A stretch of DNA of 38,526 nt from an uncultured Lachnospiraceae bacterium. GTDB taxonomy: Bacteria > Bacillota > Clostridia > Lachnospirales > Lachnospiraceae. This document shows, piece by piece, positions 4,117 through 21,684 of the stretch. The notes beneath the pieces were generated by a model that had not been told where the DNA came from, ran no database searches, and worked only from the letters and a program-made list of their open reading frames with translations. The stretch covers positions 1 to 38,526 of the forward strand of contig CANRJM010000020.1 of NCBI GenBank assembly GCA_947630925.1, written 5' to 3'. Every line of letters begins with the position of its first letter. The first letter of the stretch is position 1. The position numbers and the translations under genes are program-made.

Positions 4117-4416
4117 CTACCTCTTTTTTCTTTCTGCTCTGGCAGCAGATATTTCTGTATTAATTTCCTCCAAAGTCATTTCCGGAAGATCTGCGGTCTG
4201 CGCACGCAGATCCTCAAAGGCTTTTATTGCTTCTGCCTTCGTTACCGTATTCTCCGGAAGCCTCACATCAAACGGAACTCCTTTGACCATCTTGCTTTTA
4301 TTCATAAACATACGCAATGCCGTGGGTAAATCCATTCCAAGAGATTCGTAAATCTCCGTCACTTCCTGTTTTAATTTTTTATCTGCACGAAACTGAATCA
4401 ATACCTGTTCTGCCAT
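4117..4416 (-). CDS. RelB/DinJ-family antitoxin
   Basis: The product has 99 residues. The N-terminus VLIQFRADKKLKQEVTEIYESLGMDLPTALRMF is the ribbon-helix-helix DNA-binding and dimerisation domain of RelB/DinJ antitoxins, followed by VKGVPFDVRLP and a charged, probably flexible toxin-binding tail. I choose ATG 4416 because GGAG lies 7 nt upstream. A longer frame reaching 4482 runs through a structured leader and has no ribosome site of its own. Downstream is a truncated PIN toxin, so the antitoxin appears orphaned. RelB-type proteins usually pair with RelE-type toxins, but pairing with PIN toxins also occurs in Firmicutes. Expression probably depends on the promoter at 4633-4661 and the folded leader at 4421-4583. 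Confidence 0.85.
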   Translation of the reverse strand: MAEQVLIQFRADKKLKQEVTEIYESLGMDLPTALRMFMNKSKMVKGVPFDVRLPENTVTKAEAIKAFEDLRAQTADLPEMTLEEINTEISAARAERKKR

Positions 4417-4420
4417 AATA

Positions 4421-4583
4421 ATCTCCATTCCGGAGCGTTTATGCGACGGGGCGATGAGAAAGCTGCGTATGCAGTTTCTCATCTGCCATCAGAGCTATTT
4501 GAGACGCTCCGGCACAAATAGCCAAAGTGAGCATGAGCTCACTTGTGAAAAATAAGCTATCGAGCTTATTTTTCACACTATAC
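4421..4583 (-). promoter_or_regulatory. Structured 5'-leader element, copy 1
   Basis: Read on the minus strand, this leader contains in order: a perfect 14-bp hairpin (4545-4576, loop CGAT); a perfect 8-bp hairpin (4525-4544) found only in this copy; an 8-bp stem (4494-4501 with 4515-4522) whose 13-nt loop holds CCGGAGCGT; and a 9-bp plus 4-bp stem (4453-4483, inner CTGC-ATAC-GCAG). The loop CCGGAGCGT (4504-4512) is fully complementary to ACGCTCCGG (4430-4438), four bases before the antitoxin Shine-Dalgarno, giving a pseudoknot. The CTCC of that same strand could instead pair with GGAG of the Shine-Dalgarno. A second copy precedes the gene at 20426-21487. Structure and duplication are direct observations. 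A regulatory role is inferred. Confidence 0.75.
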
Positions 4584-4632
4584 CCCCGTTTTCACTTCAA
4601 ATCATAGTTGTTTTGCAGTTGTTTTTAATACT

Positions 4633-20425: not shown

Positions 20426-21487
20426 TTAAACCAAAACATCAACGCCAACTGTCGCCGCAGCCGTATTGGTATCCGCCAATGCCGCGTCTGTCATCTGCTG
20501 CAGACCGTCCGTTGAATTCGTCTCTTCTGCAGGTGCGGCGCCAGACGCAGACGGCTGTTCTGCCGGACCCGCCACGGTCTGCTGCATTGCCATCTCTGTG
20601 GCAGATTGTTTTTGTTCCGTACGCATCAATTCTATCTTCCGTTTTAGGTATTCCATATCCGCCTGCATCAATTCCCAGTCTTCATTGCGGCGGTGCATAT
20701 TCTTATACCGCTTTTCTTCCCTGTTTAACTCCTTTTGCAACTCCTGCAATTCATCTTTCAATTCGACATACTCTTTCCGATTCACTGCCGCTTCTTTGGT
20801 ATCCTGACGTTTCCCATTTTCCGTCATGATATTGATTTTCTCCTGGTTCTTCTCCATCTTGATATGTCTGAGTTTTTTACGCGCAGCGCGCACCATTTTC
20901 ATAGCATGGCTTTTTGCAATAGCAATCTCATTCTCATCATATCGCCCGCTGGCTTCTTTTCTTTTAATTGCGCTTAAATTGCTGTTCGCTGATGCAACTG
21001 CATTAGAAGCCTGTATCAAGGTCTTTGCGCCGCTAATAGTCGTTGATATTTTTTTATGGTTGTACACCAGAAGACGCTTTGTCTTTTTTTGATCGTTTTT
21101 CTTCTGCCGCTGTTTGCGAAGCCGTTCTAATAAACGTTCCAACCTTCGGATAGACTCTTCGGTATCATCATAGAGATCCTCTTCCTTTTTTTCCCACGGT
21201 AGCTCTTGCTCTTCCTGTGCTTCTTCTTCTCCTCCAATAACGGAAATAACTTCTGTCTTCGTCTTTCCCTCTTTCTGCACATTCATATCCTGCAGCCATT
21301 CCGCAATTTCTCCGGCTCTGCCTGATACCTCATACTGCACGCCATCAATGGAAGCCTGCGCATACGTATCGTTTACCGTCTCTCCTTCCACTGTTCTGAC
21401 TGCCTTATCGGATTCTGATAATGCGTTGGCCGGATTCCTGTACTCCGCTATATTGCGGATTTCTTCGTTTTTCCCTATTACTGCCAT
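20426..21487 (-). CDS. Conserved coiled-coil protein of unknown function behind a structured leader
   Basis: The product has 353 residues and no signal peptide or membrane segment. Residues 1-75 form a small folded region (VEGETVNDTYAQASIDGVQYEVSG then AGEIAEWLQDMN). Residues 85-115 are acidic. Residues 115-140 and 225-290 are strongly charged heptad-like helices suited to coiled coils. Residues 145-215 contain an Ala/Ser-rich helix, IQASNAVASANSNLSAIKR. The tail is Gln/Ala/Thr-rich and ends VGVDVLV. I recall similar hypothetical proteins in Lachnospiraceae but cannot name a function. A scaffold or structural role would fit. The start ATG 21487 is preceded by GGAG, and the sequence from the leader through ATGGCAG matches that of the antitoxin gene at 4416. 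Confidence 0.75.
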   Translation of the reverse strand: MAVIGKNEEIRNIAEYRNPANALSESDKAVRTVEGETVNDTYAQASIDGVQYEVSGRAGEIAEWLQDMNVQKEGKTKTEVISVIGGEEEAQEEQELPWEKKEEDLYDDTEESIRRLERLLERLRKQRQKKNDQKKTKRLLVYNHKKISTTISGAKTLIQASNAVASANSNLSAIKRKEASGRYDENEIAIAKSHAMKMVRAARKKLRHIKMEKNQEKINIMTENGKRQDTKEAAVNRKEYVELKDELQELQKELNREEKRYKNMHRRNEDWELMQADMEYLKRKIELMRTEQKQSATEMAMQQTVAGPAEQPSASGAAPAEETNSTDGLQQMTDAALADTNTAAATVGVDVLV

Positions 21488-21491
21488 ATTT

Positions 21492-21650
21492 AATCTCCAT
21501 TCCGGAGCGTTTACGCGACGGGACGATGAGAAAAAACTGTTGACACAGTCCGCGTATGCAGTTTCTCATCCGCCATCATAACTATTTGTGACACTCCGGC
21601 ACAAATAGCCGTGTAAAACATAAGCTATCGAGCTTATTTTTTACACTAAC
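21492..21650 (-). promoter_or_regulatory. Structured 5'-leader element, copy 2
   Basis: On the minus strand this copy has a 16-bp hairpin with one mismatch (21611-21646, loop CGAT), then a stem of about 11 bp including two G-U pairs (21580-21590 with 21600-21610). The 9-nt loop of that stem, CCGGAGTGT, pairs with ACGCTCCGG at 21502-21510, with one G-U. Next comes a 9-bp stem (21525-21533 with 21562-21570) that encloses two small hairpins, CTGC-ATAC-GCGG and ACTGT-GTCA-ACAGT. Copy 1 has only the first of these two. Compared with copy 1, most base changes keep pairing, as expected for a selected RNA. The Shine-Dalgarno of the coiled-coil gene follows four bases after the pseudoknot strand. Confidence 0.75.
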
Positions 21651-21684
21651 CTCCTTGTATCATTTGGCAAACCTGTCAAACCCA

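Follow-up and report, generated by a model that had tools for sequence, protein, structure and literature searches.

The window analysed here is a stretch of 38,526 nt from an uncultured Lachnospiraceae bacterium, and two copies of a structured leader lie on its minus strand, each directly 5' of a start codon. Both had been picked out by a sequence-only reading and were confirmed as such. Copy 1 stands before a small gene that the same reading had taken for a RelB-like antitoxin, an assignment borne out by its match to the corresponding Pfam family, and copy 2 stands before a gene for a 353-aa protein for which a Pfam scan at E ≤ 0.01 returned no family (Table 1). Read side by side, the two sequences show the same hairpins and the same 3' end through the Shine-Dalgarno sequence (SD), as had been described, and they also differ in the way described: copy 1 has an extra hairpin, H2 (about 4525-4544), that is missing from copy 2, and copy 2 has an extra hairpin inside H4. 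The GCAG that follows the ATG in both copies had likewise been counted as part of the shared end; as other bases follow the start codon in most of the remaining copies, this agreement looks fortuitous. A covariance model of the element, R1, built without the pseudoknot, matched copy 1 at 4414-4525 (E = 1.1e-30) and copy 2 at 21485-21612 (E = 1.3e-26), with the H1 part of copy 1 read from the sequence. In a DNA search with copy 1, positions 21481-21648 were matched at E = 1e-32, and the resemblance of the two leaders is far beyond chance. The SD-like flank upstream of copy 1 is where the ribosome-binding site (RBS) of the host gene before insertion would be expected to lie. Copies in two genera (window 4117-4416 and locus L371) precede small RelB/DinJ-like proteins that look alike, the window one alone having been scanned against Pfam; this is possibly a coincidence.

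Table 1. Features of the two leader copies and their downstream genes in the 38,526-nt window
Feature	Position	Strand	Basis
Copy 1, first H1 base to RelB start codon	4414..4578 (5' end approximate)	-	Sequence and covariance model
Upstream SD-like flank of copy 1, GGGGGTATA	4579..4587	-	Sequence; flank pattern of other copies
H1 of copy 1, AT-rich terminal hairpin, optional module	about 4544..4577	-	Sequence
H2 of copy 1, optional hairpin AAGTGAGC/GCTCACTT	about 4525..4543	-	Sequence
H3 of copy 1, hairpin GCUAUUUG/CAAAUAGC	4494..4522	-	Alignment pair counts
5' pseudoknot strand of copy 1, within H3 loop	4505-4512	-	Alignment pair counts
H4 of copy 1, enclosed by pseudoknot	4445..4490	-	Alignment pair counts
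3' pseudoknot strand of copy 1, CGCUCCGG, partner of 4505-4512	4430..4437	-	Alignment pair counts
SD of copy 1, GGAG	4423..4426	-	Sequence
Start codon after copy 1	4416-4414	-	Sequence
RelB-family antitoxin gene, 99 aa, after copy 1	4117..4416	-	Pfam PF04221, E = 5.4e-9
Copy 2, H1 to start codon of 353-aa gene; no H2	21485..21646 (5' end approximate)	-	Sequence and model
Upstream SD-like flank of copy 2, GGAGGTTA	21647..21654	-	Sequence; flank pattern of other copies
H1 of copy 2	21611..21646	-	Sequence
H3 of copy 2 (5' pseudoknot strand 21592-21599)	21581..21609	-	Sequence and alignment
H4 of copy 2, including its extra inner hairpin	21517..21577	-	Sequence and alignment
3' pseudoknot strand of copy 2	21502..21509	-	Sequence and alignment
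SD of copy 2, GGAG	21495..21498	-	Sequence
Start codon after copy 2	21487-21485	-	Sequence
353-aa gene after copy 2	20426..21487	-	No Pfam family at E ≤ 0.01

From 5' to 3' the element comprises two optional hairpins (H1 and H2), H3, another hairpin that is not always present, H4 (which in some copies encloses an inner hairpin), the 3' pseudoknot strand, AAU, GGAG, a few nucleotides and AUG, and it is about 110-185 nt long. The loop of H3 carries the 5' pseudoknot strand, its partner strand lies 3 nt upstream of the SD, and H4 is enclosed between them. Pairing in H3, H4 and the pseudoknot was scored in an alignment of 25 of the 30 loci from the DNA search of the window's own genome (alignment A1), in which 94.8% of cells were paired and double changes occurred in 14 of 34 pairs; 0 of 500 shuffles reached any of five pairing measures. 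A wider alignment (A3; 84 matches in 80 loci, 79 of them distinct and some common to A1) was fitted to H3 and H4 and not to the pseudoknot. Here 93.2% of cells were paired, and 314 cells carried double changes compared with 80.8 in shuffled and 26-47 in slid versions. The pseudoknot, already proposed from the sequence alone, proved to be real and among the best-supported parts of the fold in both alignments, with double changes in 7 of its 8 pairs in A3 and with sequence types as different as CCGGAGCGU/ACGCUCCGG, CCGAAGCGU/ACGCUUCGG, UUUCUGAGCGA/UCGCUCAGAAA and CUGGGAACGU/ACGUUCUCAG. The best loop-tail stretch had 8-11 pairs in 59 of the 84 sequences and 6 or fewer in 14, and loops set against the tails of other subtypes gave a mean of 5.7 pairs versus 8.4, some still reaching 7 or more. 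G-U pairs outnumbered A-C combinations by 71 to 15 in A1 (15 of the 71 G-U cells sit in one pair whose commonest state is U-G) and by 128 to 30 among the nested pairs of A3. As judged from covariation, compensatory changes maintain the conserved fold, and since G-U is frequent and A-C scarce on the sense strand, the fold acts as a sense RNA or a sense single strand.

One genome (G061) offers two further observations on the fold. A separate subtype (L448-L454 and L462), marked by the pseudoknot CCGAAGCG/CGCUUCGG and by an H3 resembling CGAGUUUG, occurs there beside type I. Twelve copies in this genome (L360-L369), compared by eye, are near-identical in the core, and their H1 and H3 stems differ mainly by paired double changes; either pairing alone is constrained, or one arm templates the other during movement.

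A comparison of the whole window and six divergent-subtype loci with 4227 Rfam models gave 0 matches above the gathering threshold, in line with the initial impression that the leader resembles no riboswitch class; at E ≤ 10 the only hits were four in copy 1, with scores that fell far short of the gathering level. Our literature search found no paper describing this element. In its own genome (2.42 Mb in 55 contigs) the element is abundant. The DNA search with copy 1 yielded 56 matches at E ≤ 10, some of which are parts of one place. With R1 there were 65 at E ≤ 1, a number that fell to 46 at E ≤ 0.0021. Within the genus, 23 of 28 genomes, this one included, had matches at E ≤ 0.001, with 0-43 copies per genome, the highest number being that of the window's own genome and the next 40. 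Scans of the family and the class, which were filtered more strictly than that of the genus, gave a match in 29 of 150 genomes of the family, sampled at one for each genus and including the present one, and in 2 of 245 class genomes, both of the same family and one of them the present genome; among these 245 sampled genomes the element was not found outside its own family. The exact type I pattern occurs in at least 113 stretches of GTDB genomes, and its hosts among the matches listed include Lachnospiraceae, Acetatifactor, Eisenbergiella, Roseburia and Lachnospira. A phage vehicle was considered and set aside, as the exact type I pattern, the one subtype searched for there, had 0 occurrences in the viral contigs scanned.

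Many of these further structured copies in related genomes lie upstream of start codons, as the sequence-only reading had anticipated. Among 111 distinct copies that fit the strict type I pattern and have enough flank, 105 have an ATG 8-15 nt after the CGGAA at the element's end, compared with 14.6% at random places. The same spacing was found in 75 of 79 copies from loci retrieved by a pattern that contains no start codon and stops before the SD is complete. In the window's own genome 38 of 46 copies end at a start codon followed by an ORF of at least 50 aa, a count that leans toward start codons because the last three columns of R1 are ATG. A filled site consists of the host SD with its spacer, the element itself from H1 through CGGAA, and finally an SD, a spacer and the ATG, so that the gene behind it keeps an SD at a normal distance. 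Inspection of the sequences of 100 downstream ORFs, with no systematic family scan (10 of the 111 copies were dropped as short or without a start and 1 as a repeat), revealed no common functional theme. They include what we take to be RNase III, ArgB, TrpA, SmpB, MurG, HrcA, transporters and the like, and copies in the window's own genome precede genes that presumably encode ClpX, glycyl-tRNA synthetase, an FtsE-like ATPase and MnmG. At C54:12704-12840 (L027) in that genome, a copy without its 5' portion runs directly on from the end of the preceding gene, presumably rnpA, for which it seems to provide the stop codon.

To compare filled with empty sites we used ClpX, which was found in 27 of the 28 genus genomes; in the window's own genome an element lies between genes that we take to be clpP and clpX. 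A scan of the 27 clpX loci with R1 gave one full match, that of the own genome (E = 3e-23), and, apart from the two mini-hairpin matches described below, five weak ones (E = 0.04-0.67), none of them a full copy before clpX. The nearest species by ClpX identity (93%; G164) has a plain RBS, AAACGGAGGTTAGCATGGCAGG, at the clpX insertion point. Over about 1.27 Mb of this species compared, 15 copies could be mapped by both flanks within 700 nt, and at 14 of these 15 orthologous sites R1 found no match at E ≤ 1, with a weak match (E = 0.071) at the remaining one. Intergenic DNA has diverged or changed in length at several of the 15 sites, so that "empty" there means no model match only, and the clean empty sites are therefore clpX and C7:57607, where the nearest species has a plain RBS exactly at the insertion point. 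At C37:7932, mapped on its downstream side only, a match (E = 2.5e-6) was found beside the ortholog in the nearest species, and this copy may be shared between the two. In the clpX RBS of two genus genomes we also noted a mini-hairpin ending in GGAATGGAG (R1 E = 0.15 at L121 and 0.37 at L125), perhaps a shrunken relic or a minimal subtype. The element therefore has the dispersed multiple copies and the empty orthologous sites of a MITE-like repeat. Copies also nest in one another's RBS (C26:17032 and C26:16869 in the own genome, L449 elsewhere and probably L451), and 3' ends alone persist before ATG, where decayed ends are kept as RBSs. At one RBS, before a gene that we take to be etfA, two records (L222 and L185) show clearly different subtypes, which suggests repeated hits on one site.

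The junctions point to what is hit. A hairpin stands at the place of H1 in 77 of the 111 copies, and since some of these are plainly not H1, we kept the 54 with a clean H1 shape for flank analysis; H1 was not recognisable in at least 34 of the 111. The flank before H1 is SD-like and ends in TA (T in 83% and A in 93% of the 54 copies). Direct repeats of 8-12 nt that contain the SD were present in 11 of the 54 copies, against 2.5 expected from swapped flanks. In the other 43 the two flanks, although both SD-like, share no more than the swapped-flank control, and a target duplication is thus supported for a subset only and has no fixed length. Inspection of the junctions, in one part of the work those of 23 copies from three genomes, turned up unusual sequences repeated on both sides, GAGGCATA, CGGAGAATA, AATAGGAGAAAAA and ATGGAGGAAAA, the exact H1 start at the AATAGGAGAAAAA repeat in L462 being ambiguous by a few A. 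From these repeats we read the SD as the probable target, its duplication being often eroded or variable from the start. Insertion at TA as a general rule was discarded, repeats such as ATGGAGGAAAA speaking against it. Copies without H1 in the own genome mostly have no SD repeat at the 5' junction when examined by eye, and L367 is a truncated copy with an SD at that junction. A comparison by eye of the H1 end with the CGGAA end showed no terminal inverted repeats.

A search for the gene that might mobilise the element, limited to Y1_Tnp, RVT_1 and the reverse transcriptase group UG26, found no mobilising gene, and all three were rejected as mobilisers, none of them tracking copy number. Y1_Tnp is present in 15 of the 28 genus genomes, with a short weak match only in the window's own, and its rank correlation with copy number across the 28 is -0.25 (p = 0.21). 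RVT_1 is also present in 15 of the 28, with no match in the window's own, and the corresponding correlation is -0.22 (p = 0.26). Among 12 high-copy genomes picked by hand, Y1_Tnp occurs in 3 and RVT_1 in 7. The partner Y1 transposase expected in many-copy genomes of an IS200/IS605-derived element was thus missing from 9 of the 12, and the RVT_1 match expected of a retroelement from 5. The seven reverse transcriptases of the high-copy genomes comprise two with a group II maturase domain, two of UG26, one DRT2-like and two unassigned. UG26 enzymes occur in 16 of 150 genera and coincide with the element in 5, compared with 3.1 expected (Fisher p = 0.20). Two element-rich genomes do encode UG26 enzymes (L476:312-1583 and L478:1755-2948), with the overall overlap not above chance. 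In two genomes with many similar copies, the half-matches inspected included no autonomous copy of greater length; they proved to be the ends of contigs, 3' relics, stretches resembling H1 or another subtype.

Taken together, these data lead us to regard the leader as very probably a short, non-autonomous mobile element with the SDs of genes as its target, at which it inserts in a single orientation and leaves the host gene with an SD. The sequence-only reading had left the choice between a mobile, modular, BOX-like element that brings a ribosome site with it and a cis-regulatory RNA with a shared signal. The former is supported by the many copies, their variable number within the genus, their absence from most orthologous sites tested, the nesting and the SD repeats of the subset, whereas the latter is not supported as it was put, because the host genes look unrelated and the element is absent from most of their orthologs in the nearest species. 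In its broader form, a widespread riboswitch or a protein- or sRNA-responsive leader through which one signal sets the translation of a regulon by exposing or masking the SD, with the pseudoknot opposed to CUCC/GGAG pairing, the regulatory explanation would account for the mostly sense-strand position immediately 5' of start codons, for the strong covariation including the pseudoknot that adjoins the SD, and for G-U being tolerated more than A-C. We nevertheless consider it improbable given 100 downstream ORFs without a common theme, 14 of 15 orthologous sites without a match, 0-43 copies inside one genus, nested copies and 3'-only relics, and, in a subset, direct repeats that contain the SD. 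Still less credible is a mobile translated leader. On this view a short ORF would begin at an NTG of H1, just behind the host SD, and its translation would open up the pseudoknot. H1 does most often begin with two bases and then NTG-A right behind the host SD, but one common variant, GTGTAA (8 of 54), runs into a stop immediately. H3-H4 also fall into different reading frames behind the two H1 lengths that are common, and a conserved leader peptide was accordingly rejected.

How an element of this kind would move is a separate matter, on which two explanations compete. An ordinary MITE of a DNA transposase (DDE or IS200/IS605-type) that recognises the hairpins as DNA, its bias to RBSs reflecting target preference and selection, is possible, if short of an even chance. 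The element is small, hairpin-rich and multicopy, a subset has 8-12-nt direct repeats, and the 5' boundary follows TA in most of the 54 copies, which is reminiscent of site-specific single-strand transposition. Against this, no terminal inverted repeats were seen by eye between the H1 and CGGAA ends, the Y1 transposase is missing from 9 of the 12 high-copy genomes and the pairing bias is strand-specific; for the IS200/IS605 type in particular the direct repeats are awkward, as those elements are not known to duplicate their target. An IS605-like guide formed by CUCC with GGAG was weakened as a candidate, the strand being CUUC or CUCA in other subtypes that still lie at GGAG. The competing explanation is a reverse-transcribed, SINE-like element, whose RNA, running from H1 to the SD or into it, is copied at a nicked target where the antisense SD primes on the SD at the 3' end of the RNA. 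Asymmetric ends with a fixed 3' end, the loss of a recognisable H1 from at least 34 of the 111 copies, the truncated copy L367, the sense-strand structure and the variable repeat length all fit such a route. The own genome and 5 of the 12 high-copy genomes, however, have no RVT_1 match, and the own-genome copies without H1 mostly lack a repeat by eye, so that we put this explanation forward tentatively and as somewhat unlikely. Its fullest version is a bacterial retroelement that targets SDs, in which the RNA carries its own gene's SD behind the H3-pseudoknot-H4 fold, copying starts from a nicked antisense SD at another place in the genome, which pairs with the SD of the RNA and serves as primer, and each insertion remakes an RBS and creates a new source copy; this we regard as speculative and rather unlikely.

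On the preferred reading of a mobile element that inserts at SDs, the SD of the target would be duplicated or replaced by an equivalent one, so that a gene could take an insertion without being silenced; this would account for copies in front of genes like clpX and that for glycyl-tRNA synthetase. The enzyme that moves the element would act in trans, presumably by recognising the folded strand, and a target-primed RNA intermediate is a plausible fit to the asymmetric ends, the fixed 3' end and the frequent loss of the 5' part. The element may have a regulatory effect on the genes on which it lands, in that the pseudoknot and an alternative CUCC/GGAG pairing beside the SD could tune the translation of any gene hit. 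If this reading is right, we are dealing with a mobile element that lands on the ribosome-binding site itself and that has rewired some 40 gene leaders in one bacterium with the genes left intact. As a small mobile element of bacteria with a structured RNA, it would also lend itself to experimental test. Structured 5' leaders of this sort in Lachnospiraceae could otherwise pass for candidate riboswitches.

Several known systems share part of these properties. As in riboswitches and other leaders that sequester the RBS, a pseudoknot and perhaps an alternative pairing lie right at the SD of the gene that follows, but the element differs from riboswitches in having no Rfam match, no coherent regulon that we could see and signs of mobility. 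Eukaryotic SINEs and target-primed retroelements are non-autonomous structured RNAs with asymmetric ends, a fixed 3' end, 5' truncation and direct repeats of variable length. The Lachnospiraceae element resembles SINEs in its asymmetric ends, fixed 3' end, 5' truncation and variable-length repeats and differs from them in being bacterial, in lying at SDs and in that no partner reverse transcriptase was found. The closest bacterial parallels that we know are small repeats. An account of the BOX, RUP and SPRITE repeats of Streptococcus pneumoniae mentions an enrichment between convergently transcribed genes and describes terminal inverted repeats that are paired in the folds of BOX and RUP (PMC3049150). 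The repeats described there resemble the present element in being small, modular, folded, probably non-autonomous, inserted into one another and able to be co-transcribed with genes. The Lachnospiraceae element differs in that no inverted termini were seen by eye, in lying at the SD in one orientation and in having a covarying pseudoknot. YPAL/RU-2 is similar in other ways. YPAL too has no TA termini, and it combines internal inverted repeats with target duplications whose size varies (3-26 bp) and with both empty and filled sites; targets at or next to dyad symmetry are mentioned in the same review (PMC2229807). Set against YPAL/RU-2 as described there, the Lachnospiraceae element is distinguished by its targeting of RBSs and by its pseudoknot.
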